From Pinguiococcus pyrenoidosus (taxonomy: Eukaryota; Sar; Pinguiophyceae; Pinguiochrysidales; Pinguiochrysidaceae), in contig JAAMXY010000609.1 of assembly GCA_019677205.1 (NCBI GenBank), forward strand, positions 1 through 37,090: a stretch of 37,090 nt of DNA, in the 5' to 3' direction. Positions 6,226 through 37,090 of the stretch are shown here, in pieces. Position 1 is the stretch's first letter; each line of letters begins with the position of its first letter. The notes under the pieces were generated by a model that made no database searches, was not told the DNA's origin, and worked only from the letters and a program-made list of their open reading frames with translations. The position numbers were made by a program, and so were the translations under genes.

Positions 6226-6905
6226 ATGGTCAAGATGAGACTTGCTGCATGCTGGGTCCTGCTGGGCGTCCTAGTGTCGTCGCTTTGGAGTGGATCCGGC
6301 TTGGTCAGGTAGCTCATTGCGCTGTGAGACGGCTGTTTCCCATTGTAATCCGGGGCTGTCCACCCAGCTTCGCCGGTAGAGGCGCGAGGCGGACGAGCCG
6401 AAGCATCCTAGACATGAACAAGAAGAAGGAGGACAGCGCGTACCGAGTGGTGGCGGAGAATCGCGTGGCGAGGAGGAACTACGAGATATTCGACACGATA
6501 GAAGCTGGCCTCGAGCTGAAGGGCACCGAGGTCAAGAGCGTGCGCTACGGCAGCGTGAACCTGCGCGATGGCTTCGCCGCCATAGACGACGCGGGAGAAA
6601 TCTGGTTGAGGAATGTCCACATCCCGGAGCACAAGACAACCGGGGGCTACTTTAACCACAAGCCGAAGCGTCCGCGCAAGATGCTGATGCACAAGAAAGA
6701 GATCCGCAAGCTCCGGCAGCAGATCATGGAGAAAGGCGTGACCTTGGTGCCCCTTCGGATCTACTTCAACAAGCGGTCGTGGGTCAAGGTGCTGGTGGGC
6801 ATTGGGAAAGGAAAGAAGCTGTACGACAAGCGAGAAGCGATCAAGAGGAGGGACACGGATCGAATGGTGAATCGCGCAATCCGAGCAGGCATGCGTGGGG
6901 AGTGA
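6226..6905 (+). CDS. smpB: SsrA (tmRNA)-binding protein SmpB, plastid-targeted
   Basis: SmpB binds tmRNA and brings it to stalled bacterial-type ribosomes for trans-translation. Exons 6226-6308 and 6368-6905 (intron 6309-6367, AG|GTAGCT to CCACCCAG, phase 2) encode 206 residues. Residues 1-26 are a signal peptide (MVKMRLAACWVLLGVLVSS...). The splice creates GLVSFAGRGARRTSRS, a phenylalanine-containing junction followed by basic/serine residues, as in ASAFAP-type leaders of red-lineage complex plastids. The core is canonical: an ARRNYEIFDTIEAGLELKGT start, EVKSVRYGSVNLRDGFA, the HKPKRPRKMLMHKKEI segment, and GKGKKLYDKREAIKRRD, the conserved tmRNA-binding tail. The partner tmRNA is expected in the plastid genome (known for red-lineage plastids), not in this window. 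Convergent with the RecG-like gene, 95 bases apart. Identity is very secure; plastid destination is inferred. Confidence 0.95.
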
Positions 6906-7000
6906 CCAAAGCGATCCAGAGGAAGCCCTTCGTCTCCAATGTGCACCAAAACCGAGACGTGCCTTGGCCCTTGTTGTTGTCTATGGGACGCCCGCACGCA

Positions 7001-10000
7001 TTAGAACGGGCAGGCGTCGCGTTCCAGCTCGATCTGCTCGACCTTCACCTCCTTCGCCTTCGAGTAGCCCGGGAGCAGATCTTCGAAGGGATTCTTCCAC
7101 ATCTTCACTTCCACAATGATGTTGTCGTCCTTCTCCAGGTCCTTGACCAACCTCTCGATCTTCGATTCCTCGCGAAGCGCATCCTGCAGGCGGATGCCGG
7201 CCGCGTGCTTCTTGCTCTTCAGATGCTTCAGGCGAGAGAGCACTCCCGTCTTCGTCCTACACAAGGACATGGCGAGCACGTCGACGGGCAGATCACGGTT
7301 CTTCCAAAGCCATAGATCGTGGTCCACCGGCCAACGCCGAGCCTTCGTCGTGGGCACATCCGCGAAGCCATCGTCCGCAGCGGCGCCCGATTTGCCGCCG
7401 TTGACGCTCTTCACACGAGGTACTGCATGGTGCACCACGACGCCATCGAAGGTCCGCTCACCAGGCCCCGGCGCGGCTTGCGTGCCTGGCGGGGGTCGGA
7501 AGTTCAGGCCGGGGATGTGACCGAGCGACGAAACGACCTCGGGAGGCACCGGCATGAGGATCTGCGAGCGCATCGCATGCTTGCGCCATACTCGGCCTGC
7601 GGGACTGTCAACTAGAATCCTCTCCAAACCCAGGACATCCCCAACGGCATTGTGGGCAAATCGCATTTCCTCGTCGAGCAGCGTGTTGTAGATGACCTCC
7701 TGCTTGCAGCTGGAGGGCTTGCCGATCTCCATGTCTTCCCAGATGGATTTGCTGCGGAACAAGCGTAGCGTGCACAGGAAGCTCACCACCCCTTCCAGGC
7801 CCAGACCAAACTGCGACGCGAGGCCGCCAGCCGGAAGCTTGAGCTCCCTGGAGTGCGTCTGAAACTCAGACTGCAGCACTCGGGAGTCGAAGATCGCGTT
7901 GTGAGCTGCAAAGACGACCGGCGGCAGGGGAAGCGCCTCGAGGTCCATGTCAGCCACGAAGCGGCTTAGCTCCTCTGCCGATTTGCCACCCTCGCCAGAC
8001 CACTGGGAGAATCGATCGAGGACAGCCGCTTTGATTCCGGCTTGCAGCCTTTGACGAGCTAGCCACTTGCGGAACTCGTTCCAAACCACGGGAAACCTCT
8101 TCGCCCCGGCTTCCTGCAGAGTCTCGCTGCTGATCCCTGTGATCTGTGCGACCTCCGTGGGCACCGGAACGGATGGCATCACATATCTGCTAAAGAGCGT
8201 TCCATCTGCGGGGCCCAACCCGAGGCCGCTTCCGTCAACGTCATCGCTGAACGCGAACTCCTCCGAGTCTGCGACCTCCTCGCCGCTCTCCGTGTTGAAG
8301 CATGTCCTTGACACCGCAGTGGCCGTTTCCGTGTCTGCTGGGTTGACGCGCACCAGCGAGTACGGGCTGTTGCTCACTTGACGGTCTGGAAGAAAGCCGT
8401 CGTCATCTATCACTTTGGCAGCCAGTTGGATGACCTCGGCATCCTTGCCGAGGCCCGTTGCCTCCACATCAATGACAATGACGAGCGGTGGGGGCCGCAC
8501 GCCGAGCCCTATGCCAAGCTCTTCGTCGGCAAATGGCAGCGACACCTCGAGGTCGACGGCACGATGCTCGGGCGCCAGCACCACTTCGGGGTCCCACGCC
8601 CTTCTCCACGCCTCCATTCCGTCTCCTGGCGGCGGTTCCGGAACGAACATCGCGTAGCGGGATTCTGCCTCGGGCCCGTTTGGTTCGTCCGACGCCTCGA
8701 TCGCCTCTGGGGCTTCGCATTGTGGGCGAGGATAGCGCTCAGGGTCCAGCAGATGCCGAGCTGCCGCCAACGCCGCGAGCTGGCTGGCGGTGGTGTTCAT
8801 CGCAGCATCTGGCACCCGAATCTGCGACGGATGCGGCAGCTCGGGGCCCGGAGGCGAGTCTGCGGCAAGATCATCGTCATCTGTATCTACCTCCGCGACA
8901 ACGTGCGACTGCACGTGGGGCATATGCAACGGCTCGCGACTGCAGTCTCCATACAAGCTTAAGAAACCATTGTCGTGCAACTCAGACGGGAAGGCTTCGG
9001 AGTTGGGCAGGAACCTCAGGAGGCTGCCATTGCGACCGAAGAGAGCCATCGTCACGCCAAGAGCATGTGCCAGCGGAGAGTCCTTCGGCACCTTCTGCAC
9101 AAGATCCAGGCCGACTTGATCTGCATCCCTGAGCAAGCTTAGCGTACGGTTCAGATTCTGCCTCGCGTCGCCGTTCTCAGGCGTCGCTTCTGTCGCTGCC
9201 TGCCCAAAGGAGCCGTTCCTCGCATCCGTGAGAAGGTCCAGCGTTCTGAAAGACGGAAGCGCTGCAGACCTGTCCGCGAGGAACTGCTCAAAACCGCTGC
9301 GCCGCAGATCTTCCTCCACTACACGGGCTCCGTCCCTCAGCAAGTGAACCAGCTCTTCCGTCCGCTTGTCCTTCTTTGTCCTCTTGGATGCTTGAGCAGC
9401 GTCGCGGGGGTGAATGACGACCATCCTCGGGGCCACATTCTTCAGGGAGTGGTCATTCCCATCGCCTTTGCAAGGCGATCCGCTCCATATCGCGAGTCGG
9501 CGCAGCATGCAGTAGATGCTCTTCAGGGGCACTGCATCATGCGAGGCATCCGTCAGCTTCAACGGAAGGACGGGCGCTTCGACAACGACGAGATCTGCCT
9601 CCAGCATATCCACCCCCATGTTGCGCCCCACATGCAACGGAGCAACGAGCATTCGCTTCTCTCCCTTATTGAAGGAGCTGATGGCCGCCCTCGCCATCTG
9701 CGCGCTGCTGTCGAGTCCGAGAGAGACAATGCAGTCCTTCGGGAGAGCCCGCTTCGCTGTCTTGAGAATCGCCGGACTGGGATCCTCGCCTTCCGCCGTC
9801 GAGTTCGGAAACGCCCAGAGGACGCGCCCGCCGCTGCTGATGACGTCCTTCGCACTCGAGAGGACATCTCGGATAGACTTTGGCGTGTCGCTGACAACCT
9901 GAAGCGCAGACGCATTGGCCTCTGAGCGCCGTGCCCTCTTGCTTCGACTCTCGCTGTCGCTGCGCTTCACCGGGACGATGCTGGTGCAATCAAAAAGAGT

Positions 10001-11809
10001 GCAGTGGACGAGCTCTGAGGGTATCGGAGAGTTCGGAACCATGACGACGTTCTCCGCCTGCCTCCGGAGAACATCTCTCAGATCGCGAGGGAGCAGCTGC
10101 TCGTCTTCGACAATCACAAGTCCAAACTGACTCAGCGAGTTCCGAAAGTCTCCCTGCAGGATCTGGTGCGGTCCCACCACGACCGCAAGGTCTTTCACGT
10201 CTGCGCTGTCGAGCATTTGCATGAGCCGCTGCTTGCGCGAGCTTGTGAGGACCGCTTTGAAGGAAAGCTGAGGGCTCTCGTGCGCCGAACCTGGCAGTCC
10301 TCCATCGTTCGCTGCAGCAGCCTCCACCTCTTCGGCAAGGAGAGTCAGTTCCTCGAGCCGCCGCCGGACCAGGAGATCCGAGGGCAGCAGCAGCAGCGTG
10401 CGCCTTCCCGATTCTGCCGCGCGGGCAGACAGACACAGGTCGAGGCTAGCTGGATGGAGCATGGTCTCGTCGTTGATCAGGGCCGAGGTTCGCAACGGCT
10501 TTGCGAGCTCATCCCAGATCTGGCGCACTGCAGCTTCTTGGTTGGGTTCGATGCGTCGTCTCGCCGCCAGCAGGGCCAGTTGCCCAAGCCCGGGCTGCTG
10601 GCAGTCGCCCGCTTCCGAAACATCCACCTCTGGCAAGGCAAACACCGCTGGCTTGGTCGAGCGCGGCTTGCTTGCTGCGTCGATCGCGCTCGCATACTGC
10701 TCGAGGAGCAACTCGACGCTGTTGGCCACAATCTCAGAGTGAGCAAGCCGAGTCCGCACGGCTCCGGTCGGACTCGCCTCGCCCATCTCAAGCGGCTTGT
10801 GAGTGGACACGATGGCGTTTCTGAGGCTAGTCCACTTCTGCGAGGAGAGATCGTCGCCCGACATGAAATCCGCAAGCTGCGCATACGTCTCCAGCTGCTC
10901 TAATGCGTTTGTCAACGTGCTTTGCACCTTCTTAGAGGTCAAGCCTTTGACAAGCTTGTACACCGTCTCTATGGAAAAGGCGTCCTGCACCGCCTCCATG
11001 CCGACGTCTTGGCTTTTCTGGCGGCTGGACTTCTCCTCTTTTCCGACCGGGAATCTTTCTAACAAGTCGGGATACTTCAGCTCCGCCTGAAACCGAGTCC
11101 CGGGCTGGCCTCCCTCTTCCCAGTCCGCATGCGGAGTCAACGTGGCCTTGCCGCTCACAAGAAGTACGTCTCCCTTTCTGAACGTCTGCTGCGTTCCGCG
11201 CACGCCGTAGCCATAGCCAAAGCCGAAACTCCTTTGGAATCGGCTCACATTGACCGCATCGCCATTGACATCCTTGCATTCCAGCACCACCAGGGTACCA
11301 CTACCGGTCTTCCGCTCGTAGCTCTTCTGCACCACGACGACGAAGCTGACGGGATCCTGCGTCGCCCGGCGGCGGGACAGCGACCGCACGGTTTCCACGC
11401 GCGCGCGATCGATGTAATGCCGGGGAAGATGGAGCAGGAGGTCTCGAATGTGTCGGATGGACAGGCGCTGAAAGGCCTGGGCCATCTTCGGACCAACGCC
11501 CTTGATGCTGCTCACAGGCTCGTTGAGAAAGGCGACTTGCGACGAGCTGGCAGAGACCTCCGCAACAGAAACCGGGACTGGCAACCAATCTGGGTGCCCA
11601 TCGTGCAGATCAGGACTCGGAGGCGCAGAGCCGAGGCTGTTGGCACCACCCTTTGCCAGGGGCTCCCTTTGCGTGGACGAGAAGACGCGGGAAGGAGGGC
11701 GTAAAGATCTTGCCGGCCGGTGCAGCCACCGGATGCCGAAGCAGCGCGGTAAGGACGCCGCTGCCATGAGCACAGCGGGGATCCAAAGCCGCGCGCTAGG
11801 AGACCTCAT
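7001..11809 (-). CDS. Degenerate RecG-like helicase fused to a DEDDh 3'-5' exonuclease, organelle-targeted
   Basis: One uninterrupted frame of 1602 residues, starting at the ATG at 11809. Residues 1-25 form a signal peptide (MRSPSARLWIPAVLMAAAS...), followed by a basic, serine-rich stretch. Residues ~85-280 match the RecG wedge region: a SIKGVGPKMAQAFQRLSI helix-hairpin-helix, LLLHLPRHYIDR, then an OB-fold. RecG helicase motifs follow but are broken. The Walker A position (~446) reads LINDETMLHPA with no GKT. The DEQH box reads VIVEDEQLLP. The TATPIPRTL box reads NSPIPSELV. The GRVGR region is lost. RecG-like context is kept (VVVGPHQILQGDF, SSFNKGEKRMLVAPLHVG). Residues ~1110-1390 are a DnaQ-type exonuclease with all acidic/His positions: DVEATG, HNAIFD, HNAVGD. 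A short WxxxHD...RLKHL helix-turn-helix-like segment follows near 1490. I infer a plastid (or mitochondrial) DNA-maintenance factor: nuclease active, helicase dead. Confidence 0.85.
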   Translation of the reverse strand: MRSPSARLWIPAVLMAAASLPRCFGIRWLHRPARSLRPPSRVFSSTQREPLAKGGANSLGSAPPSPDLHDGHPDWLPVPVSVAEVSASSSQVAFLNEPVSSIKGVGPKMAQAFQRLSIRHIRDLLLHLPRHYIDRARVETVRSLSRRRATQDPVSFVVVVQKSYERKTGSGTLVVLECKDVNGDAVNVSRFQRSFGFGYGYGVRGTQQTFRKGDVLLVSGKATLTPHADWEEGGQPGTRFQAELKYPDLLERFPVGKEEKSSRQKSQDVGMEAVQDAFSIETVYKLVKGLTSKKVQSTLTNALEQLETYAQLADFMSGDDLSSQKWTSLRNAIVSTHKPLEMGEASPTGAVRTRLAHSEIVANSVELLLEQYASAIDAASKPRSTKPAVFALPEVDVSEAGDCQQPGLGQLALLAARRRIEPNQEAAVRQIWDELAKPLRTSALINDETMLHPASLDLCLSARAAESGRRTLLLLPSDLLVRRRLEELTLLAEEVEAAAANDGGLPGSAHESPQLSFKAVLTSSRKQRLMQMLDSADVKDLAVVVGPHQILQGDFRNSLSQFGLVIVEDEQLLPRDLRDVLRRQAENVVMVPNSPIPSELVHCTLFDCTSIVPVKRSDSESRSKRARRSEANASALQVVSDTPKSIRDVLSSAKDVISSGGRVLWAFPNSTAEGEDPSPAILKTAKRALPKDCIVSLGLDSSAQMARAAISSFNKGEKRMLVAPLHVGRNMGVDMLEADLVVVEAPVLPLKLTDASHDAVPLKSIYCMLRRLAIWSGSPCKGDGNDHSLKNVAPRMVVIHPRDAAQASKRTKKDKRTEELVHLLRDGARVVEEDLRRSGFEQFLADRSAALPSFRTLDLLTDARNGSFGQAATEATPENGDARQNLNRTLSLLRDADQVGLDLVQKVPKDSPLAHALGVTMALFGRNGSLLRFLPNSEAFPSELHDNGFLSLYGDCSREPLHMPHVQSHVVAEVDTDDDDLAADSPPGPELPHPSQIRVPDAAMNTTASQLAALAAARHLLDPERYPRPQCEAPEAIEASDEPNGPEAESRYAMFVPEPPPGDGMEAWRRAWDPEVVLAPEHRAVDLEVSLPFADEELGIGLGVRPPPLVIVIDVEATGLGKDAEVIQLAAKVIDDDGFLPDRQVSNSPYSLVRVNPADTETATAVSRTCFNTESGEEVADSEEFAFSDDVDGSGLGLGPADGTLFSRYVMPSVPVPTEVAQITGISSETLQEAGAKRFPVVWNEFRKWLARQRLQAGIKAAVLDRFSQWSGEGGKSAEELSRFVADMDLEALPLPPVVFAAHNAIFDSRVLQSEFQTHSRELKLPAGGLASQFGLGLEGVVSFLCTLRLFRSKSIWEDMEIGKPSSCKQEVIYNTLLDEEMRFAHNAVGDVLGLERILVDSPAGRVWRKHAMRSQILMPVPPEVVSSLGHIPGLNFRPPPGTQAAPGPGERTFDGVVVHHAVPRVKSVNGGKSGAAADDGFADVPTTKARRWPVDHDLWLWKNRDLPVDVLAMSLCRTKTGVLSRLKHLKSKKHAAGIRLQDALREESKIERLVKDLEKDDNIIVEVKMWKNPFEDLLPGYSKAKEVKVEQIELERDACPF

Positions 11810-12280
11810 GCCCGACGGCGCTCCGCGCGTGGCCACGGAGCCTCACTCGCGGAAGGTGGCACCCAAAAAAAAAGCGCGCCAAATTGATTCGCGTGAACAT
11901 GACTTGCAACAAAAGTTACTCCAAAATAGTACCGTTCCCAATCATCATCGTCCCTTGGACGTATTCAAAATAAATCTTGTAGTTACGTTTCTTATTTCAA
12001 AGCTCATATAAAAGACTTCAATTAACCCTTCCACAAACGGTTTCGATCAAGTGTTTGAAAAATTCTGCCTTTTGGATTTCTTTTTCATCAAGGTATGGTG
12101 TGAAACAGGTGAATATCTTTCCTTCGGTTTCATTGGTAGCGGAGTACGTACACGTCCGGAGGGCGTTTTGGCGCCAGATCTCGCTGGATTTCGCGAGATC
12201 CTCCGCCCGAGGCGTCCCCGGCCTCCCATATTCTCCTTTTTAAAGTGGAGCAGCAAGGCTGCCCCTAACGTGTTGCATCC
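11810..12280. promoter_or_regulatory. Divergent intergenic region with AT-rich core
   Basis: This 471-base gap separates the starts of two divergent genes (RecG-like fusion on the minus strand, exporter on the plus strand). Bases ~11866-12130 are clearly richer in A and T than the GC-rich surroundings and contain an A10-like run near 11867-11876 and a TATA-like CATATAAAAG at about 12005-12014. No coding motif is recognised. A shared promoter is the simplest reading (inference); a small AT-rich insertion is the alternative. Confidence 0.4.
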
Positions 12281-13752: not shown

Positions 13753-16700
13753 TCACCCATGCTCGCGGGATCCTGTCAGACGGCGAAGACGAGATCGATT
13801 CTCTGCCGAAGGGCTCCTTTGCATCCGAGGAGGTGTGCGTCTTGCAGAGGAAGCAAAGCTCGAGGTAAGACTAGAATCCCTTCCCGGCAGGCTCCGTCTT
13901 CGGTACGCGGACAGCTCCGAAAAGGTCTGCGGCACTCGGACGTCTCGAAAGGTGAACAGGCTCAGCGGCCGAGGCTCCGATTCTCGACGTCGCACCAGAG
14001 AAGGTGCGCTGACCCGTGCATTCTGCCCTTGCGCAGCCAGCTCTTGGGGTGACGGCGCCTCTAAGGCCGCAGCGTCTTGGTTTCCTGACTCTCTGGGGCG
14101 AGGTGCAGCTGTATCCTCGCCTTTGTCGCTTTCGCCACCCTCCACGAGTGCCTTCACGCGGTTGAAGTACTTCTTCGCAAGATAGCCACGAGCTTCAATC
14201 AGCTCACGGAGGGTGCTGTCGAAGAGCGTCCAGCAACTCGTGCTGGTGAAAGCGCGATAGCCTAGCTTCTCGAAGGACCCGAAGAGCCAGTCATGCCCGA
14301 AGAAGTGATTGCTATCCAGAATTCCGCGGATTTCGATGCGATGGTCCGACGCGGTGGCCACGCGCTCCACAATGCCTTCCACGATGAAGTACGTGCCGTC
14401 GCTTTCCACGCCGGGGTACCAGAAGAAGTCGGACGCGTTCACAAAGACGCTCTTCAAGATCGTCACGATCTCCACCACGAAGCTCGCCTCTTGATTGCGG
14501 AATAGGACCAAGGCCGGGATGAGCTCGGTGTAGGCGAGGAGCACCACGTTGCGCCGCAAGTAGTACGGCAATTGCTCTAGAATACTCGCCTCGTCCAAGG
14601 CGGTGCGGTACCGCATCTGGGACTTGGCTTGGATGCGGACATCTCTCTGCACGTCGACGCCGCAGCCCTGCTCGCGAAGGTAGTCTTGGATCTCCATGAG
14701 CTGCTCCTGCATCATACTCTTCGCCGCCGAGCCTCGCGTGGCCAACTCGGAGAGGCTCCCGACTGCGTAGCCGAAGACCGTCGCCCCCACGAACATGATG
14801 GCGGTGGCGACGCGTCTCTCGCTGTCGTTCACCGAAACGATGTCACCGTAGCCAACGGTCGTCATGGTGGTGAAGGCCCAATACAGAGACGCCACGTATC
14901 GTTCGCCCAGCTGCTGCTCGCGCAGGCCCACCGCGCCCCACCACGTCGTCCCTGCAAAGTCGTCCTCGTCGCCGGCCAGGAAGCTATTGTACGACCAGAT
15001 GCAGCAGAAGAGGTGCCCGATGAAGCCGAGGACGATCATGATCGTTAAGATCCGCACACTTGCGGTCCCGACGTAGTCCTTCAGCTCCCGCACGATCTCC
15101 ATCTGGCCGAAGTTGAGCGCGCGAAGCGCCTTGAACAGGCGGAAAATGCGCAGGGCTCGAATCAATTTGACCGAGCGCGTCTCCTTGCCCGACCCGATGA
15201 GGCCTTCGAAGATCCTGTCGAAGGGGATCGTCGTGATGACATCCACGGCGAACCAACCGCGGAGATACCTCTCCTGAATCATGCTCGGCACCGTGACGTA
15301 CACGCCTCGGTCGTCGTTGTACGCCGTCCGGAACGCGAAGACGATGTCCACGAAGAAGCAGCTGTCCACCGAGTAGTTGACGATGACCCAGTATCCATCG
15401 TTTGCCACGTCAAAGCCAAGCTGCAGCGGCGTCAGCGTCACCGTGAACACGATGAGGAGCGCAATGAAGATGTCCCACTTCATTTTGATCGGATCCTTGG
15501 GATACCAGATCAGACGAGCGCGGAGGTCGGCGTTGGCCTCCGTGTCTTCCATGAGGATATCCCCCACTTTGTGCAGCGTGGAAATCGGCTTCGTGCTGCT
15601 TCTCACCCCATCGACGTGAAGGCATCTTGCAAGGCCGGCAACCAAGTGGTACGAGCTGCGCCGCCGGGCCTCCCTGTCGCGCGCCACAGCACGGGGGTCC
15701 TTCCCGGCAAAGTCGACCCGCCGTGACTTGACGAGCTTCCTGCCCACGAGGATCGTCTCCTTCACCAGCCCCGCTTCCGTTTCAAGCGTAGCCGTCGCGA
15801 AGATCTGCTTCAGCATGCTCTTGTCCTCCTGCAGCCGGTCGTGGAACACCGACGACATGTCCGGGTGCTCCGACAGCAGGTCGGTCAGCTTTCGGTACGA
15901 AATCCAGTACAGCGAGCTGGGAACGGGGCAGACATAGCTCCCGGAAACCGGAGCGTCCTCCACGCCGCAGGGCAGCGCCACTTCAAGCCCCGCGTTGTAG
16001 ATGCCGAAGAGCACGTCGCCTTTGGGCGATGGTATGAAGGCTTGAACCCGGCCCTTGTCGATGAAGTAGCACTCGGACAGGAAGTCACCCTGCCTCGCCA
16101 AGCATTCCTGCTCCGGCACCTGCATAGGGTTCAACCTGGCCAGAAAGTCCACGATGAAGTTGGTGGAGCAGCACTCGAGCACCTCGAGCTTCGTCATGGC
16201 TTCTTCGTAGATGTTGAAGCAGATCCTTGCCTTCAGGAGCGCCGGCAGCGTCAGCAGCATTGGTTGCGTCGTCATGATGGACTTGTGGTGGCAGTAGTAC
16301 TCGAAGTGGCGGATCACCGCCTTTCGCAGCGGTCGAGGGATCTGCCGGTCCAACAAATAGTCCTGCACCTCCCCGATGCGATTCTTCAGCGCCGTCGCCA
16401 CGGGATCCCAGGACTGGATGATTAGCGTGACCGTCGCCAGGATGAGGCCAAAGGTCGTGGCGCCCAGCAGCTGCGTCATCAGCGCGAAGATTCGCTCGTT
16501 GATGGTCACGCCGGAGATGTCGCCGTAGCCGACGGCGAGCATCGTGGCAATGGTGAAGTACAGCGCGCTGGTGTACTGGGAAGCCGGCGTGTTGCCTCCA
16601 CACCTCGTCCAGTCCTGGGCCACCTCGATCTCCTCGTCGCTGTAGTGGCCGGCCGGTCGACAGTCGTTGGTCCAGAACCACGCGCAGGCGATGAGGTGTG

Positions 16701-17190
16701 CGACGAAGATGATGCGTGCCATCAGTGTAACCAGCTTGATGATGGACGGGTTCACGTTGTCGAAGTTCCTCCCTTCGCTTAGCTTCTTCAGCTTGAGGAG
16801 ACGCGTCAGCTTGACGAGTCGGAAGAGGCGCAGGGAGCGTACGAGCTTGAGGCTTTGCACCTCGTCGCGACTGGTACTGGCGAGCAGCAACGGGATGAGG
16901 AGATCAAAAGGCAGCGTCGACGCCACGTCGACCAGAAGCCAAGTCTTGAGGTAGCGCTTCGCGATCTTCATCCGGTTCTTGATCAGCACGTCATCACAGA
17001 GCACGGCGGTATTGAAGGTGACTCCCACGTCCAGAGCGAAGAGGCTGTCGATCACTAGGTCGACCACGAAGGCGGCGCCGCGAGGGTCTAGCCCGAAGGC
17101 GATGCGGTAGGGCACGACCAGCACGCTGTACACAATCCAAATGCCGATGAAGATGTCCCAAGCGATCTGCACCGAGGCACGGGGTGACAC
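13753..17190 (-). CDS. Two-repeat (2 x 6TM) cyclic-nucleotide-gated/EAG-like potassium channel
   Basis: An open frame of about 1145 residues carries two complete voltage-gated-like channel units in one chain. Unit 1: S1 at the start, an S4 rich in Arg/Lys (KLVRSLRLFRLVKLTRLLKL), pore filter MLAVGYGDIS near residue 220, C-linker, and a cyclic-nucleotide-binding-like fold near 355-455. Unit 2: S1 near 565 (KWDIFIALLIVF), S4 RSVKLIRALRIFRLFKALRA, filter TMTTVGYGDI near 780, C-linker and a second, more divergent cNBD-like region near 890-990. Both filters have the K+-type GYG. The C-terminal ~130 residues are Arg/Ser-rich and disordered. Two such chains would give a four-unit pore (inference). 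No ATG lies at the 5' end of this frame: the frame enters through an AG at about 17209-17210, so at least one upstream exon exists, probably within 17250-17610. Probably a plasma or internal membrane channel. Confidence 0.85.
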   Translation of the reverse strand: MSPRASVQIAWDIFIGIWIVYSVLVVPYRIAFGLDPRGAAFVVDLVIDSLFALDVGVTFNTAVLCDDVLIKNRMKIAKRYLKTWLLVDVASTLPFDLLIPLLLASTSRDEVQSLKLVRSLRLFRLVKLTRLLKLKKLSEGRNFDNVNPSIIKLVTLMARIIFVAHLIACAWFWTNDCRPAGHYSDEEIEVAQDWTRCGGNTPASQYTSALYFTIATMLAVGYGDISGVTINERIFALMTQLLGATTFGLILATVTLIIQSWDPVATALKNRIGEVQDYLLDRQIPRPLRKAVIRHFEYYCHHKSIMTTQPMLLTLPALLKARICFNIYEEAMTKLEVLECCSTNFIVDFLARLNPMQVPEQECLARQGDFLSECYFIDKGRVQAFIPSPKGDVLFGIYNAGLEVALPCGVEDAPVSGSYVCPVPSSLYWISYRKLTDLLSEHPDMSSVFHDRLQEDKSMLKQIFATATLETEAGLVKETILVGRKLVKSRRVDFAGKDPRAVARDREARRRSSYHLVAGLARCLHVDGVRSSTKPISTLHKVGDILMEDTEANADLRARLIWYPKDPIKMKWDIFIALLIVFTVTLTPLQLGFDVANDGYWVIVNYSVDSCFFVDIVFAFRTAYNDDRGVYVTVPSMIQERYLRGWFAVDVITTIPFDRIFEGLIGSGKETRSVKLIRALRIFRLFKALRALNFGQMEIVRELKDYVGTASVRILTIMIVLGFIGHLFCCIWSYNSFLAGDEDDFAGTTWWGAVGLREQQLGERYVASLYWAFTTMTTVGYGDIVSVNDSERRVATAIMFVGATVFGYAVGSLSELATRGSAAKSMMQEQLMEIQDYLREQGCGVDVQRDVRIQAKSQMRYRTALDEASILEQLPYYLRRNVVLLAYTELIPALVLFRNQEASFVVEIVTILKSVFVNASDFFWYPGVESDGTYFIVEGIVERVATASDHRIEIRGILDSNHFFGHDWLFGSFEKLGYRAFTSTSCWTLFDSTLRELIEARGYLAKKYFNRVKALVEGGESDKGEDTAAPRPRESGNQDAAALEAPSPQELAAQGQNARVSAPSLVRRRESEPRPLSLFTFRDVRVPQTFSELSAYRRRSLPGRDSSLTSSFASSARRTPPRMQRSPSAENRSRLRRLTGSREHG

Positions 17191-18099: not shown

Positions 18100-18255
18100 A
18101 AGGGCTCCGCGCGGCTCTGGCATCGTCGTCTCCCATTCTACGAAAATGAAGCCTCAACTCATCAAGGAGTCAAGCGTGCACGCTTTACGAAAGCGCCTTG
18201 GACCGTTCCACACAAGCCCTTGAGAAGGGAAAGCCGCTGACGTCGATTGTAGACC

Positions 18256-19612
18256 ATGGACCTGGCGTCGTTGGAGTCGGAGGAAGAGCGGGAGCTGCGC
18301 CGCCAAGTGGAGGAGATGGAACAGAAAACGAAGCACTATCTTCGACTGCTCCCGGATGGGCGGACGAGGCAGTAAGACTATGACTTTGGTGGGCAGGTCA
18401 AAGTGATCATAGCTCAGAGAGGCGTCTCAGGACGGGCACATCCTACTCCGGGGACAAGAAGGAGATCGGAGATGCGTGGGTGCCGCATGGGTTTGGCGAG
18501 CTACGCGTTGCAGGTCGGCGTTGCTACAAGCATGGCTCCCACGGACCGCCGCTAAAGTATGCTCCTCTCGCAAAGGCGATACCATCTACGCAGGGAACTA
18601 CAGGGAGGGTCGGATGCACGGGCAGGGGACCTATCTCTTTGAGAACGGCGACCAGTGGAAAGGCGGATTTCGTCACTACTTCCCCCATGGCTCAGGGACG
18701 CTCATAAGAAGCAACGGCGCCAAGCACGAAGCGCTATACAGAATGGGTAAGCTGGCGTCAAGCTTGTTTGGACGTGAACTAATGGCTTTTGGCTGCAGGC
18801 AGGCGAGTATGCTATCGGCAGAGCTTGAAGCCTGGAGCACGCATCCGCCTACACGATCCAGCGCACGCGCGCCGTCCATTTGGAACGATTATTCGTGAGT
18901 CCTAAAGACGTGAGGAGCCCGATAGTATCGAGTTGATGGATGCACAATAGGAGAGCGGCGGGGGAAGTTCTTGGTCAAGTTTGATGGAGGGACCGAGGAG
19001 CTCTACCTGGACTTGGCGTCGGAGGATTTTAACCTCCTGAAGGGACTTCCGCTGGCCCTTGACTTGGAGATGGCGACTGCGGAGCCGCTGATAGTCGAAT
19101 CACGTTACGGCTATGAGCACGACCTGCGGCATCCGTCGAGGAGTCATCATACGGAGAACTTCTTTCACGAAGTTGACGCCAAGGAGAGGGAGGCCGCGAA
19201 AGACAGGTGATTCCCGTTTCACAAGCGGCGCCGCCGGAGGCTGTGGACCCGCAATGAATGACACGTGATGCTTGCGCCGGTGATAGGGAGGCTCGACAGC
19301 GAGCCCTACGCGAGGCGTGGCGGAGCAAGCAGCAAAAGGAGCGCCAAGAAGCAGAAGAGGCACGTCGAAAAGCCAAGGAGGCCACAGACCTTGAGGAGGC
19401 CCTCCAGAAACGGCGGGAAAAGGCAAGTCGGATGAGGATTGTGCGGTTCATCTGTTCACTCATTCACACGCACCTCGCAGGAGGAGAAGGAAAGGAGGGA
19501 GCAAGAAGAGCTGGAGAAAGAGATGGAGGCCGCCGTCCACGCGGCGAAGGAAGACTGGCAGCGAAGGCAAGAGTCACTTGCGACAATCCAACGAAAGAAG
19601 GAAGCGCCATAG
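18256..19612 (+). CDS. MORN-repeat / Tudor-like / coiled-coil protein
   Basis: Seven exons fit in phase: 18256-18371, 18431-18513, 18576-18746, 18799-18894, 18951-19206, 19287-19422 and 19481-19612, giving 329 residues. Introns are 52-80 nt; the last starts with GC (AAG|GCAAGT), a classic GC-AG type. Residues 1-40 are an acidic coil (MDLASLESEEERELRRQVEE). Two to three MORN units follow (YSGDKKEIGDAWVPHGFGEL; YAGNYREGRMHGQGTYLFEN; WKGGFRHYFPHGSGTL). A beta-rich segment near residues 125-180 (GARIRLHDP...GKFLVKFDGGTEELYLDL) looks Tudor/SH3-like. The last ~95 residues are a highly charged coiled coil (KQQKERQEAEEARRKAKEA). MORN proteins commonly tether complexes to membranes or the cytoskeleton. 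The stop codon lies only 3 bases from the stop of the IF-2-like gene on the other strand. Confidence 0.75.
19423..19480 (+). other. GC-AG intron in the MORN gene
   Basis: The junction AAG|GCAAGT...CCTCGCAG|GAG removes 58 nt in phase 0 and joins two stretches of the same charged coiled coil; without it the frame runs into unrelated sequence. The donor fits the extended consensus that GC introns normally need. Confidence 0.75.
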
Positions 19613-19615
19613 GTT

Positions 19616-22448
19616 CTATCGCCTAGTCCTCCTCCTTCTATGGCGTGGTGTCTTTTCCGTCATTTCCGAGGCCACGACCTTCGTCTTTATCAGCTCTTGA
19701 GCTACGCCAATGTCTTGAATGTCCTCTTCGTGAGCCCGAATCTGCATGCGAAGAGCGATATCATGGCGTCAGAAGCGAAGGCCCAACGGGAGGAAGGTTT
19801 CAACGGCATACCACGCTGTCTCTTCGCGCCTTCATGTAGGTCTCGGCCTCCTTGATAAGCCTCGTTCGCTGCGCCTTCTCCTGTGCTGTATACCTCCTTG
19901 AGTTACCAGCTTGATGTTGCTTGCGCCGCTCGGGCTTCTCTGGAACTGTCGGGTCGACGAACTGGCTGGTGTCGAAGAAAGGGGAATCGTTGTCGTGCAG
20001 CTGGCCCACCATCGACGGACTCGATGCTTTCGACAGAGCGTCGCGAGCACCGACATCGAACACAGGAAGCCCAGTTGTGTCTTCTTGCTCTTCTGCTGAC
20101 TGCGCAGGAGTCCTCTTCTCGGTCATCAGGAAATGCACGAACTGCGGCACGGTTTCGAAGGTCTCCAGCCGAACTCGGCGAAGCTCGCAGAGCCTGCGCA
20201 GGCTATGGACAACCCTCTGTCCTACTCGGTGGTTCCCATGATACCGAAGTTAGCCCACGTCCTTGCCAGCAGAGACTAGCCGTACACGCGGTCAAACGCA
20301 CCATAAACGGAAACGAAAGCGACGATGGCCTTTGCCTCGACCGCCGTTGCCACGTCGGTTGGTGTCACGTTGCCAATCCCTTGGGCAAGAGACCCGTGAG
20401 TCCGTGGCCCGAGCACTTCCAGGACGAATCCTGCTCGACCTCAACTCGGAGACTTACCAACATTCGTGATGAAATCCGACGTCTCGAAAAGGTCGTCCAC
20501 GGCGTCAAGAATTGCCGCAAGAGTGTGACCGGATGGCGTCTTCAGGATGATTGGGGGCGGGGCATGCCCAGGCACGCTCGCCGTCGGTGTATGATCCTTC
20601 TCTGGCAAGTCCTGGACGACATTTTCCATGTCTGGCTCGAGGCTCTCGCCATGGCCGGTTGAGGTACTTGCGAAAGCTGTCAGGGCGTCCCTCATCTCCA
20701 GCTGCATCACCGCTTGGTCCCTCAGCGCAGCCGCCCGAGACTTGGACACGCCAAACAGCGTCTCGCCCAGAGGGGCGTCGATCGCCTTTCCTGCGGATCC
20801 ACGATTACCCTACGGACGACGGTATCAAGCAATCATTCTGAGCTCCTACCCAAGTTCTTGATAATCACGTGAACGGCTTGACCGGGGTACGCGCTCTCCA
20901 ACGGTCTCAAGGTCGGCGGTGTTGCCATCCCCAGTGCCGCATGGTCGACGTCGTTGGTGGTTGTCCCAAGCGTCATCGAGCGAACAAAGCCCGCCAGATG
21001 GCCGACAACGAAGTGATCGCCAACCTACATTTCGCGGACGAGACGATGAGGTCCTGCAGGTTGTGCAGACGAGCACCATGGGACTCGCCTTGAGAACACC
21101 TTCCTGGACGAGCAAGAACATGTTCTGGCCTTTCGTGACATCAAGATGAACGTCAATGACGGTACACACACAAGATGCGCCAGGCGGTGGACCGCTCGGG
21201 GCCAGGCGCAGCTTCGCTTCTTCATCCTCAGCCTGCCCGGGGACTTGTACTTCCGCTGCTGAGCCAGCGGATGCCAGCTTGAACACGTGGTCCAAGACGG
21301 AGTCAACCCCAAGCCCAAGCGGAGAGCTCGTCAGATACGCGCACGGCGTACTAGAAGAAGCAGCGTGGAAGTCTTCGCTCGATTCGCGAAGCGTGAGCCC
21401 ATCCATGATCGTGAAGGCCCTCAGATCGTCCAGGAGCTTCGCAACGAGCTCATGACGGGGGAGACTTGATGCGTCCTGGCCGGGGCGCTCCAATCGATCT
21501 GCCATTGTAATCGCCACGACGAACGGCACTTCCAGCTCCTCTAGGATTCCAACTGCTTCGGCCGTCTCGGCGAGGTCTTGGCCGCCGAAGGGCGAGACCG
21601 TGACGATCGCGGCGTCCGCGAGTTTCCCACCAGCGTTGCGCATTCTCCAGAAAACCGCCTGTCCTGGCGTGTCAATGAACGTGACGTCCTCCGTGCCCTT
21701 TAGCTTCTGGTTTGTGTGCCGCCAGTGCCTTCGGGGCACCTGCGCAATGCGCAGCTCCTGCGTCATTCCGCCAAGTTCCGCGCCTGCCAACTCGGCGCGG
21801 GAGCCGATCCCCGCCATCCTCGGCGGAACTCCGGTCTCGGGAGCTCCCAGGCGATACGCCTGCCTGGTGAGGATGGCCTCCAGGAGCGACGTCTTCCCGG
21901 CATCAGCGTGCCCAAGCAGCACGACCACAGGCATCTTCTTGGGGACGACCTCTCCCTCCGTGCGCTGGTTCGTGGCCTTCTCCGCCGGCAGATGATCCGC
22001 GATACCCAGCGATCTGAGCGCGCGCCGCAGTGCTGGACAGGTACCAGGCGCGATCTGCGCACCTGGCTGCACCTTGACCGAAGGAATGAGGTGGAAGTCT
22101 CTTCGGATCCGCTCGAGGAAGATCCAGCAGTACCTGCAAAATATCCAGCTGCTCGTCATGCACGCGAAAGCCCTCCTCCGCGGCTATCTTGCTCGCCGTG
22201 GCATGGTCCAGCACGATCTGCCTCCGCGACTTGTAGCCGTAGGTGTTCCCGTTGCTTGCAGAGAGGTAGTAGGTCTTGCTCTCCCGGCGCAGATGCTGCT
22301 TGACCAGCTGCAGCTTGTTCCTCTTGAGGATCTCCGCCAGCTGCGGCAACCTCAGAAACGCCGGGAGGCGCAGAATCTCCGAGGCCCCGCACATATGAGC
22401 GAGAGGCTTGTGTGAGACATGCGCGGCGTCAGACTCCCGAAGCGGGCG
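19616..22448 (-). CDS. Divergent IF-2-like GTPase, organellar; N-terminal leader interrupted by assembly gap
   Basis: Seven minus-strand exons join in phase: from the gap to 22134, 22072-21089, 21024-20850, 20790-20458, 20379-20302, 20221-19812 and 19741-19616. At least 806 residues are visible. The order is IF-2: an N-domain (LRLPQLAEILKRNKLQLV; IVLDHATASKIAAEEGFRV), G-domain (VVVLLGHADAGKTSLLEAI; GGMTQELRIAQVP; TFIDTPGQAVFWRMRNAGG), domain II (QEGVLK|VGDHFVVGHLAGFVRSM), and domain III (PPIILKTPSGHTLAAILDAV; GIGNVTPTDVATAVEAKAIV). IF-2 places initiator tRNA on bacterial-type ribosomes. Oddities: DTPGH is DTPGQ, the NKxD base-recognition motif reads TMAD, switch I is shortened, and the last domain, which binds fMet-tRNA, is absent, replaced by a charged tail. 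One intron is GC-AG. It may be a repurposed paralogue rather than the working factor. The start lies in or upstream of the gap. Confidence 0.8.
21025..21088 (-). other. GC-AG intron in the IF-2-like gene
   Basis: On the minus strand, CTCAAG|GCGAGT...AATGTAG|GTTGGCG removes 64 nt in phase 0 and yields VLK followed by VGDHFVVGHLAGFVRSM, which matches IF-2 domain II (family pattern LKVGDxxVxGxxxGRVRAM). No GT donor nearby gives this match. Confidence 0.75.
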
Positions 22449-22537
22449 NNNNNNNNNNNNNNNNNNNNNNNNNNNNNNNNNNNNNNNNNNNNNNNNNNNN
22501 NNNNNNNNNNNNNNNNNNNNNNNNNNNNNNNNNNNNN
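22449..22537. other. Assembly gap (89 N)
   Basis: Run of undetermined bases within the 5' part of the IF-2-like gene; the real length is unknown, so reading frames must not be carried across it. Confidence 1.
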
Positions 22538-22750: not shown

Positions 22751-23434
22751 CTAGAGGGTGAGAATCTCCTTCTCCTTCTTCGACACGGCTTCGTCAATGG
22801 CCTTGCTGAATTTGTCAGTGACGTCTTGAACATCTCCCTGGTTTCCGGTGGAGTCGTCCTTGCTGATGTCGCCACTCTTCTCCAGCTTCTTCAGCTGATC
22901 CACGGCATCCCTCCGAATGTTGCGCAAGGCCACCTTCCCATCCTCGCCCATCGCCTTCGTCTGCTTGGCCAGCTCCTTGCGGCGTTCCTCCGTGAGCGGC
23001 GGGATGTTGAGACGGATGATGGTGCCGTCGTTCTGCGGAGTGAGGCCCACGTCCGACTCCATGATCGCCCGTTCCACGTCCGCGATGCTGCTCTTATCGT
23101 AGACGTCCACGGTCAGTTGCGTCGCCGAGGGAACGCCGATGTTGGCCAGCTGCTTGAGCGGCGTCGAAGTGCCATAGTAGTCCACGTTCACCCGGTCCAG
23201 AAGCGACGCCGACGCACGGCCGGTGCGAATGGTGTTCAGCGAGCCCTTCACCGACTCCAGGCTCTTCTCCATGCGGCTCTCCGCCTCCAGCACGATCTCC
23301 GCGGGGTCGACGTCCACCTCGGACATGAAGAGAGGGCGGAACGACGCCTGGTAGCCGAGGCGCGCCGGCGGGCGGTGCCAGCCCGCGACGCCGGGGCACA
23401 AGAGCGGTGCGAGCCACGCCACAAGAACGCGCAT
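22751..23434 (-). CDS. frr: Ribosome recycling factor, plastid-targeted
   Basis: RRF works with EF-G to split the post-termination 70S ribosome. The 227-residue frame starts at the ATG at 23434. Residues 1-18 are a signal peptide ([18 protein letters not shown]), followed by W and a basic stretch ([16 protein letters not shown]). The mature protein begins near residue 48 and shows the whole family: [36 protein letters not shown] with the TPLKQLANI loop, and a C-terminal helix with [20 protein letters not shown] plus [11 protein letters not shown]. The two-domain layout and length are normal, with a short acidic insert ([15 protein letters not shown]) in the last helix hairpin. It lies on the same strand as, and upstream of, the IF-2-like gene, but the ~200-base spacing with separate leaders argues for separate transcripts. 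Very secure identity. Confidence 0.95.
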
Positions 23435-24132
23435 TGTTTCAGTCACGAGGAAGCTATGCTCCAGCAAAGCTTACCACGCACAACGCCTCCGAACGCTGGC
23501 GTCGCAATCTTGAAGTGCGGCGTGGCGGGCTGGTCCGTCTGTCTCGCCGGCGCTTCGCCTGTCGCGCTCCGGACGGCTCCGGAGCGGCGGAGTCGATCCG
23601 TCACCGCGTTGCGGAAGGCTTGGCGGGCTGTCTTTTGGCTGACGAAGAGCCGCTTCTCGTTCCGCGCTCGGGATCTGCGGCGCCGCTTCTGCGCAGTGGC
23701 GTGAGAGCGAAGGAATTCGCTGACCTCGAGGCGGAGTCCGCTGACTTGCGGAGGGCTGGAGCCACTCCGGCGAGAGCTCTTGCCGAGGAGCGCGCGGTGG
23801 TCGCTCGTCCGGACGCGTCTGGTGGCGCCGCGGTGCCAGGTCCTCGCGGAAGGATTCTTTGAGGTTCGCGGCACTCTTCGTTCGAACACAAAGGGATCTC
23901 TGGCGGCTGACCCCAGGCTGAACCTGTCGTCTCTGCTTGCTTGCAGGGTGCGCGCAGCAGGACCTCGCTTGGTCCTGGAGCCAGAGACGCGCGCGAGGGC
24001 TGCGCAAGCTTTTCTGGCTGCCGCGTGCTAGGACCCTGTCCTGTTGATCTTTGATCCACCACCACTTTCAGAAGCCTACTTGATCTATCCAGTGTTCGCG
24101 GCGGAGACGTACGGAGCGAAAAGACGACAAGC
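23435..24132. other. GC-rich stretch without a resolvable gene
   Basis: About 700 bases between the RRF start and the next plus-strand gene. Several frames of 80-180 codons are open on both strands because the sequence is GC-rich; they are rich in Arg, Ala, Pro and Ser and show no family motif. A consensus GTAAGC donor-like site lies on the minus strand at 23474, just upstream of the RRF start, so an untranslated or leader exon of the RRF gene could lie here (inference). Confidence 0.4.
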
Positions 24133-34069: not shown

Positions 34070-35522
34070 TCAAGCGGCGGTTGCCCAAACCCCTGCCCGC
34101 AGACTTGAGCCCTCGTAGTCCGCGCTGTTGCTCAAGCATGCCTCCTCCGGCAGCGCCGCCAGCACCTGGTCAATTTTCTTTCAGTTAGTCGACAGGAGCC
34201 CAGCGGGGCTATTGCGATGTACCCACCTCCTCCGGCAACTCCTTTGCTGCGGCCCACACGACTTGTGAAAAGCTCTGCTCGGGATTGCAAATGTTCTCGT
34301 CCAAGGCCTTGCGATACCGCTTTCCGCTGCGCTCCCCCGCAAACAAGTTTTGCAGAGGTTTGCCAAGAAAGCGGCGGATGCGGATCTCCTCGTCTGCCAG
34401 CTGCTCCTCCGCGTAGGCACAGTACTGCTGGAGGACGGCTCCTCGCGATCGCTCTGGGAATTGCCCCAGAGGAGTGGCCACGAGTTCACCGCTCTCCGGC
34501 GGATCTCGCCCGTACACAAGCTCATCGACGCGAGACCAGTAGAAGGGGCGGTAGATTGCCGCTCTCCCTATCATGACGCCGCTGCAGCCGGCCTCCAGGA
34601 AGCGGTCTATCTCTTCGAATGTGGTGATGCCTCCGTTGATGGTGACTCGGAGCTGGGGCATGTCTTGCATCAAGCGCAAAACGCGATCGTACTGAAGCTT
34701 GGGGATCTTTCGATTGTCCTCCGGCGTGAACTTCTTGCCCAGCAGAGCCTTCCTCGCATGCACCACGAAGTGCTCGACGCCGGCCCTCTCGTGGATGGTG
34801 GCGACGAAGTCCCTAAACTCGTCGTAGCTGTCCATCTCGTCGACGCCGACGCGGCATTTGACGCTCGCAGGCAGGCCCGGCATGCCCTCCTGCACGGCCT
34901 GCATGATGTCGGCAACGAGGTCCTTCTCTCGCATCAGGGCGGCACCAAAGCAACCCTTGCCAGCCACGCGCTCGGACGGGCAGCCGCAATTGAGGTTCAC
35001 CTCGTCGTATCCAAAATCGCTTGCGATGCGAGCTGCCCCTCTCACGACATCTGGATCCGACCCGCCCAGTTGCAGCACCAGAGGCTCCTCCTGAGGACTG
35101 TACGCAAGGAAGCGGTCGAGCAGAGCGTCGTCCGGGGCGTGAACGACCTTCTGGGCCGTGACCATCTCCGTCCAAAGCACGGTCTCCTTGCTGCGTAGAA
35201 AAGTCCACAAGCGAAAGACTGTGAGGCATACCTTTTAAGGCATAAGGGCATGGAACAAGGAAGGGGAGCGCGACTCACCTAAGCAGGCGGAAGAGGAAGC
35301 GGAAGTGGCGATCGGTGTAGTCCATCATGGGCGCAACGCTGAACAGCGGTCTCTTCACCCCTGGAGCGCAAGACCGCAGCCAGAGTCAGACGTTGTGGCC
35401 TGTTTGCGGTTGTGAAGCCACGAAAAGAGCGAAAAGCACGAACCCGCGAGGGCAGCGGCCCGGACGCTTCCCATCAGCAGTGCAGCGATCAGCACAGCGA
35501 GAAGGGCTTCTTTCACCGCCAT
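34070..35522 (-). CDS. dusA: DusA-type tRNA-dihydrouridine synthase, plastid-targeted
   Basis: This FMN enzyme reduces uridine to dihydrouridine in the tRNA D-loop. Exons 35522-35444, 35360-35279, 35190-34227 and 34165-34070 join in phase to 406 residues; introns are 83, 88 and 61 nt. Residues 1-26 form a signal peptide (MAVKEALLAVLIAALLMGSV), spliced to VKRPLFSVAPMMDYTDRHFR, the FMN-phosphate start of DusA. Other motifs: SKETVLWTEMVTAQ, VLQLGGSDPD, NLNCGCPSERV with the catalytic Cys near residue 124, SVKCRVGVDE, HFVVHARKALL, TINGGITTFEE and GVMIGRAAIYRPF. Catalytic and FMN residues look complete. DusA (rather than eukaryotic Dus1-4) features and the leader indicate a bacterial/plastid origin. 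The last exon encodes a 31-residue tail; without that intron the frame ends at 34209. Confidence 0.93.
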
Positions 35523-36013: not shown

Positions 36014-36919
36014 TCAGCTCTTCCCGGCGAGGGCCTTGAGCTCGGCATCGTCCTGAAAATCTGCCGAAGCGAACTGCAGCGCCTCTGCGGAGCGTTGCAC
36101 CGCCGCCTCCACCAGCGCCCGTCGTCGGCGCATCTTCGCGGGTGCATACTGCAAAGCGTTGCCGTCGGCAGACACGGCACTCAGCACGAGCTCTTCATTC
36201 ATCTTGCATGCAAGCGGCAGGACCTCCAAGACCGCTGGGCTTGCTGGGAGGATCTCCTCCTTGAGCAAGGCACTCTCGGCAATGACCGCAGATTTTGGGA
36301 AGCTTGCGACGGCCGCTGGATTCCCTCGGACAACAGTGCGGAAGAAGGCCCGTTGGGTCGACTCCGACGCCCGCTTCATCCTGCCCAGCAGCAATGAGAG
36401 CAGAGACGGATCCGCAGCCAGGGCATCCGTGACAATGCCGTTCGGGTTCGCGGCGAGGATCGAAAAGTGCGCGTACTGGACTGCTCTCGGATTCTGCTGC
36501 ACCGCCAAGCTCACCACGTCCACATCGCTCCTGAAGGCATCGTCGGCCAGCTCGAGCGCCAAGCCGTCGTTGCTCACAGCCGCCCTGGTCACGGAGGCAA
36601 GCTTGCGGGCCTCCTCGCCAACATCGCGGAGGGCAACGCCGGTCTGCTGGACGGCCATCAACGCCAACTCGACGTCATCCTTGAGCGGCGCCGCGGCGAA
36701 GCCAATGGCCGTGCCATCATTCTGCAGCGCCATCACCACCATCTTGCGCTCGCCGCGAAACCTCTCCGAAGCGAACTGTAGCGCGGCGCCACGACTCTGG
36801 AGTGCGGCCGTGACGACATCAATGTCGTCCGCGAAAGATACTGCGTGACGAAGGTTGAAGCCGTTCTCGGACACCTTTTTCAGCACGAAGTGCACATTGC
36901 GATACTGGAGAGAAGCCAT
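36014..36919 (-). CDS. DUF4116-like repeat protein
   Basis: The ATG at 36919 gives about 302 residues; the frame stays open to the window end (37090), so a longer N-terminus or upstream exon is possible. The chain is a series of ~45-49-residue units of the type D-x-VVxxALQxxGxALxFAxxxLxxD: VVTAALQSRGAALQFASERF, VVMALQNDGTAIGFAAAPLK, ALMAVQQTGVALRDVGEEAR, RAAVSNDGLALELADDAFRS, VSLAVQQNPRAVQYAHFSIL, VLSAVSADGNALQYAPAKMR and AAVQRSAEALQFASADFQDD. These match the DUF4116 repeat, a helical solenoid of unknown function common in protists. No membrane segment is seen after residue 1; an upstream open stretch with an Ala/Arg-rich composition could be a leader. The same domain type ends the ankyrin gene at the opposite end of the window. 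Confidence 0.8.
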   Translation of the reverse strand: MASLQYRNVHFVLKKVSENGFNLRHAVSFADDIDVVTAALQSRGAALQFASERFRGERKMVVMALQNDGTAIGFAAAPLKDDVELALMAVQQTGVALRDVGEEARKLASVTRAAVSNDGLALELADDAFRSDVDVVSLAVQQNPRAVQYAHFSILAANPNGIVTDALAADPSLLSLLLGRMKRASESTQRAFFRTVVRGNPAAVASFPKSAVIAESALLKEEILPASPAVLEVLPLACKMNEELVLSAVSADGNALQYAPAKMRRRRALVEAAVQRSAEALQFASADFQDDAELKALAGKS

Positions 36920-37090
36920 GGCAGAACGCGAGTACGAGGGCTTCCGGCTGCGCAGCACAATGCGCGGTGCCAGGGAGCGCCAGACCGCAGCGAAATGAGC
37001 GCGCGTTTCCTTGCAGATTGCTGTTGCCACCGCCGCCGCCGCTGTACAACGCAGGACTTTCTGCTTCCATCGGCATCTTAACAAGTTCAA

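Follow-up and report, generated by a model that had tools for sequence, protein, structure and literature searches.

An algal open frame uniting a RecG-derived pseudo-helicase with a DEDDh exonuclease: sequence and predicted structure

RecG is the textbook fork-remodelling motor. Fusions of RecG with a DPD1-like exonuclease have been described from the green algae Micromonas, Ostreococcus, Volvox and Cymbomonas (Plant Cell 2024; PMC12292046), and the role of such DPD1 fusions is stated to be still to be explored (PMC12079397). In searches of open-licence PMC papers we found no report of an inactive RecG, and the name RecG-DPD1 led only to PMC12292046. Here we analyse a window of 37,090 nucleotides (the whole stretch under study, contig JAAMXY010000609.1), in which the open frame P0001 occupies positions 7001..11809 of the minus strand and encodes 1602 amino acids, in a single exon as far as can be read from the DNA. 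Sequence and predicted structure support a two-part reading of P0001, a RecG-derived pseudo-helicase followed by a DEDDh exonuclease in which none of the five catalytic residues is missing. The fusion is of a known kind, and what seems to be new is the dead motor together with an apparently non-green host. A sequence-only reading of the same DNA had proposed a wholly new arrangement. The published fusions of green algae do not bear this out as regards the fusion, while the dead motor does appear new compared with the published passages.

The RecG-derived part, its lost ATPase motifs and the exonuclease

The frame starts with an ATG at 11809 and ends with a stop codon at 7003-7001, while the plus-strand reading of the same positions contains many stops. 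The sequence-only reading had thus placed the ends correctly, and the orientation has to be given as the minus strand, to which all feature coordinates below refer. The NCBIfam RecG model matches P0001 with an E-value of 6.8e-26, the Pfam model RecG_wedge (PF17191) reaches 27 bits on the whole protein at a cut-off of 23, by which a wedge domain is present, and a profile built from 59 RecGs gives 70.6 bits, whereas none of 500 shuffled sequences exceeded 1.6 bits. Because of these three scores the RecG homology of P0001 exceeds chance. Used as a query, the RecG part retrieved 15 matches of 621-870 amino acids, with helicase domains listed for all of them. The curated cut-offs for whole RecG proteins are missed (90.7 bits vs 785 for NF008164; 64.1 vs 659.4 for TIGR00643).

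Residues 95-400 (10610..11527) comprise the wedge (OB) domain with N-terminal hairpin helices and linker helices, and are followed by the helicase lobes without ATPase motifs (residues 400-800; 9410..10612), which were delimited by profile, alignment and predicted structure. The eroded C-terminal (TRG) region and tail (residues 826-945; 8975..9334) come next. The order of wedge and helicase lobes, already seen by the sequence-only reading, is borne out by the RecG profile, the Pfam wedge match and the predicted structure, which has a RecG-like fold over the length of this part. A Pol I-like exonuclease remnant suspected by eye in residues 880-950 turned out to be RecG tail in alignment A1. The model RecG_dom3_C (PF19833) has no match anywhere in the assembly, and the TRG motif of P0001 aligns in place.

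The best-preserved stretch is the wedge, as residues 97-184 score 37.4 bits with the 59-RecG profile vs 8.7 bits for the lobes. Its tip carries an aromatic residue in both alignments, either F191 (alignment A1, where the column is Phe in 14 of 15 RecGs) or F195 (alignment A3). In Thermotoga maritima RecG, Phe204 and Tyr208 at the wedge tip matter for the binding of branched DNA, and the wedge confers the branch specificity of RecG (PMC7889586).

To describe the motifs we used the 145 columns that are conserved in at least 90% of the 59 RecGs, which are mostly proteobacterial. P0001 keeps 48 of the 145 columns and has gaps at three. Among the early motifs the conserved residues kept are 1/3 for Q/0, 1/11 for I, 2/8 for Ia, 3/5 for Ib, 1/10 for II and 3/8 for III; among the later ones they are 2/6 for IV, 0/2 for IVa, 5/13 for V, 3/13 for VI and 4/12 for TRG. 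Motifs I, II and VI taken together retain five out of 34 residues, so that the ATPase motifs of RecG are not present. The place of Walker A (motif I) is at residues 444-457 (10439..10480; LINDETMLHPASLD against LLQGDVGSGKTVVA), that of motif II at residues 566-578 (10076..10114; IVEDEQLLPRDLR against IIDEQHRFGVHQR, its one kept residue being counted in register), and that of motif VI, which includes the arginine finger, at residues 761-783 (9461..9529). The sequence-only reading had listed GKT, DEQH box, TATPIP and arginine finger region as all lost. This holds for GKT, for the arginine finger region and for the register and the His of the DEQH box, but a D-E-Q triplet, shifted by one residue and lacking the His, remains at residues 569-571, and the PIP of TATPIP is retained at 595-597. 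The Walker A pattern G-x4-GK[ST] is absent from P0001 and from all six frames of 7000-12200, and therefore no overlooked exon in this region, and no other frame of it, supplies an intact Walker A. From these sequence comparisons the RecG part would be expected to have no ATPase activity.

A linker, acidic and proline-rich in composition (residues 946-1094; 8528..8974), separates the two parts, and Pfam finds nothing reaching a cut-off in residues 881-1085. The TREX/DPD1-like DEDDh 3′-5′ exonuclease domain (residues 1105-1425; 7535..8497) was recognised by Pfam (RNase_T, 40.4 bits at a cut-off of 24), alignment and predicted structure. All five catalytic residues are retained: D1114 and E1116 of ExoI, in VIDVEATG (8462..8470), D1308 of ExoII, HNAIFD (residues 1303-1308; 7886..7903), and H1386 and D1391 of ExoIII, HNAVGD (residues 1386-1391; 7637..7654). 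ExoI is followed by a poorly modelled insert of about 58 residues. NCBIfam matches of this region are of the DnaQ/DinG type and all below their cut-offs, and a phmmer search against PDB chains gave none at E up to 10. The predicted structure has a DEDDh fold with TREX as the nearest among the listed solved chains, and families absent from these lists may match it as well. The five residues had been noted correctly before; the DnaQ family, to which they were then ascribed, gives way to TREX/DPD1, to which the modelled fold is closer. We regard this part as a putative 3′-5′ exonuclease. Near the C-terminal end residues 1491-1545 (7175..7339) might form a helix-turn-helix, a low-confidence suggestion from helices at model positions 403-466 with block pLDDT values of 33-68. 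That the anatomy of P0001, a RecG-derived part plus an exonuclease, is real and beyond chance we hold to be very probable.

Leader, host and neighbouring genes

The first 48 residues (11666..11809), where the sequence-only reading had noted a secretory-type leader, can be read as an organelle leader. A hydrophobic stretch at residues 10-20 (IPAVLMAAASL) is followed by a Phe after Cys and by an Arg/Ser-rich region; the 48 residues contain nine Arg, no Lys and neither Asp nor Glu. This leader and the kind of host suggest that P0001 is targeted to an organelle. The plastid is the better guess, and a mitochondrial presequence is also conceivable.

In the assembly (23.7 Mb in 768 contigs) light-harvesting proteins are matched 29 times at the level of exons. 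One of the matching frames has, after a Met inside the listed open reading frame, a leader with the end ADAFAF, and the leader of an Mfd gene on contig 502 ends in SSAFVRPF. Because both fit the pattern of signal peptide plus ASAF motif described for stramenopiles, dinoflagellates and cryptophytes (PMC4329603), the host must be an alga whose plastid is complex. It is apparently no green alga, a green-derived complex plastid being also conceivable.

No canonical RecG was found in the assembly with RecG_wedge, RecG_dom3_C, TIGR00643 and NF008164. This is a lead and not a result, because the search was made exon by exon, the completeness of the assembly is not established, and a RadA search was also weak, with partial matches under the cut-off only. 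The strongest helicase match, a seemingly intact second RecG at 17674-18870 of contig 502 (E 6.9e-79), is the transcription-repair coupling factor Mfd, as seen from its match to TIGR00580 (E 4e-185) and its CarD/TRCF RID domain; a candidate on contig 253 is a DEAD-box RNA helicase and one on contig 13 is UvrB. The remaining helicase matches, 8 of 12 for NF008164 and 7 of 11 for TIGR00643, are weak (E 9.8e-6 or weaker) and were not identified one by one. The Mfd-like frame on contig 502 (L003:1006-3498, 831 amino acids, with an ASAF-type leader) shows homology only from the RID domain on (model position 310 of 907) and is without the N-terminal UvrB-like module of bacterial Mfd.

The window further encodes three bacterial-type translation proteins, SmpB (6249-6902, plus strand), an IF-2-like GTPase (20849-22159, minus) and a ribosome recycling factor (22754-23467, minus). 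In addition there are an ankyrin-repeat protein with a DUF4116 (1062-2570, plus), a DUF4116-repeat protein (36017-37090, minus), an ion channel with a cyclic-nucleotide-binding domain in an open frame of 1145 amino acids (13756-17190, minus) and a dihydrouridine synthase (34212-35210, minus). Positions 22449-22537 are a run of N.

Proposed function and alternatives

Judging from sequence and modelling, P0001 probably, though far from certainly, is targeted to an organelle and fuses a RecG whose motor is dead to a DEDDh 3′-5′ exonuclease of the TREX/DPD1 type, directed to branches and independent of ATP. The RecG part would retain the wedge that grips junctions as well as its two-lobed shape, but would neither bind nor hydrolyse ATP, and for that reason it would hold on to branched DNA and leave it in place. 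The exonuclease tethered to it would trim 3′ ends at the branch, which may be 3′ flaps where forks meet or the invading 3′ ends of D-loops between repeats. One chain would thereby combine the flap-finder of RecG with trimming, in place of unwinding by a motor. In bacteria, 3′ exonucleases and RecG are regarded as two routes by which the same 3′ flap can be disposed of. Flaps arising where forks meet may be degraded by 3′ exonucleases or else be unwound by RecG, whose affinity for 3′ flaps is high, and E. coli recG cells are not viable when three such exonucleases are missing (PMC5055574). In a moss the loss of RECG leads to more recombination between short repeats (PMC7076466), and therefore the trimming of invading 3′ ends may be a second task.

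More tentatively, RecG might have become a scaffold that recognises branches independently of ATP, guides a TREX-type exonuclease to the forks and D-loops of an organelle and replaces canonical RecG in this complex-plastid, apparently non-green alga, as an SF2 counterpart of what AddB is among SF1 helicases. If this is true, the part of RecG worth keeping in an organelle may be flap removal and not remodelling. A natural protein that keeps the grip of RecG, drops the motor and adds an exonuclease would make it testable which RecG function organellar genomes need. RecG-exonuclease fusions also seem to reach beyond the named green algae, which bears on the age of the fusion.

Alternatively, P0001 could serve bulk degradation, as a DPD1-type nuclease clearing DNA from plastids or mitochondria, while the RecG remnant would hold DNA in a general way, as a scaffold without branch specificity. 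Land-plant DPD1 does degrade organellar DNA in pollen and senescing leaves, green plants have fusions of DPD1 with other DNA-binding proteins, MutS1 and RecG (PMC12292046; PMC12079397), and the RecG part of P0001 is strongly eroded, TRG included. However, the stretch that erosion has spared most is the wedge, the very domain that gives branch specificity (PMC7889586), and its tip has stayed aromatic, which makes bulk degradation rather unlikely.

The frame could also be an artefact or a decaying gene, that is mis-assembled, decaying, or spliced in such a way that the halves are separate proteins. Among 7987 scored proteins none was a relative of the whole protein at E up to 0.001, and among 7996 scored with the C-terminal 508 residues none reached an E-value of 0.01 or better; remote orthologues may be missed, because these searches scored only candidates sharing most short words. 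On viral contigs 12 and 42 stretches fitted a pattern in two scans, none of them related to P0001. A neighbouring gene at about 18250-19620 seems, by eye, to have introns. Against this stand 1602 open codons and the codon usage, which was learned from seven further frames of this genome (3694 codons) and tested in 26 blocks of 60 codons. In 25 of the 26 blocks, RecG part, linker and nuclease included, the P0001 frame scores above both alternative sense frames, and the one block lost is the first, which covers the leader. Antisense frames, placed roughly, outscore it in four blocks (from residues 1, 61, 481 and 1381). Since, moreover, the catalytic residues are all kept and a similar fusion is known from green algae (PMC12292046), we consider artefact or decay improbable.

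A helicase that is still active through a divergent nucleotide site is highly improbable. The retained D-E-Q triplet and PIP could speak for it, as could Staphylococcus aureus DinG, once reported without helicase activity and later shown to be active. Against it, Walker A and motif VI of P0001 are nearly erased and the Walker A pattern is missing from every frame of the region; the doubt about DinG had been attributed to an FeS domain that was incomplete, and not to a lost Walker A (PMC12345164).

Comparison with known systems

P0001 follows the domain order of bacterial and plant RecG/RECG1, from the wedge through both lobes to the C-terminal region, here eroded, and its predicted fold is RecG-like; it differs in the erased motifs I, II and VI, in the added nuclease and in scores far under the RecG family cut-offs. 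With DPD1, TREX1 and TREX2 it appears to share the exonuclease fold, as modelled, and all five catalytic residues, but its exonuclease is fused, carries the insert after ExoI and has a C-terminal extension.

AddB carries its own nuclease domain. Both AddB and RecC are inactivated helicases reused for recognition, and AddB of AddAB resembles P0001 in that a helicase fold which has lost its activity serves to recognise DNA within an enzyme that is both helicase and nuclease (PMC4824097). Unlike P0001, which belongs to SF2, AddB is an SF1 protein, recognises Chi and works with the motor AddA; we claim no shared ancestry. An SF2 helicase and a DEDDh exonuclease also share one chain in DinG of S. 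aureus (PMC12345164) and Bacillus subtilis (PMC12525004). There the helicase is DinG/XPD-like, and in S. aureus the exonuclease is at the N-terminus and helicase activity is reported, which rules this protein out as a precedent for a dead motor.

The closest systems are the RecG-DPD1 fusions of green algae, whose domain order and helicase state are not described in the passages of PMC12292046 that deal with them. Like these, P0001 combines RecG, known as an organellar protein, with a DPD1/TREX-like DEDDh exonuclease on one chain; what sets it apart from their published description is the loss of the RecG ATPase motifs and an apparently non-green host.
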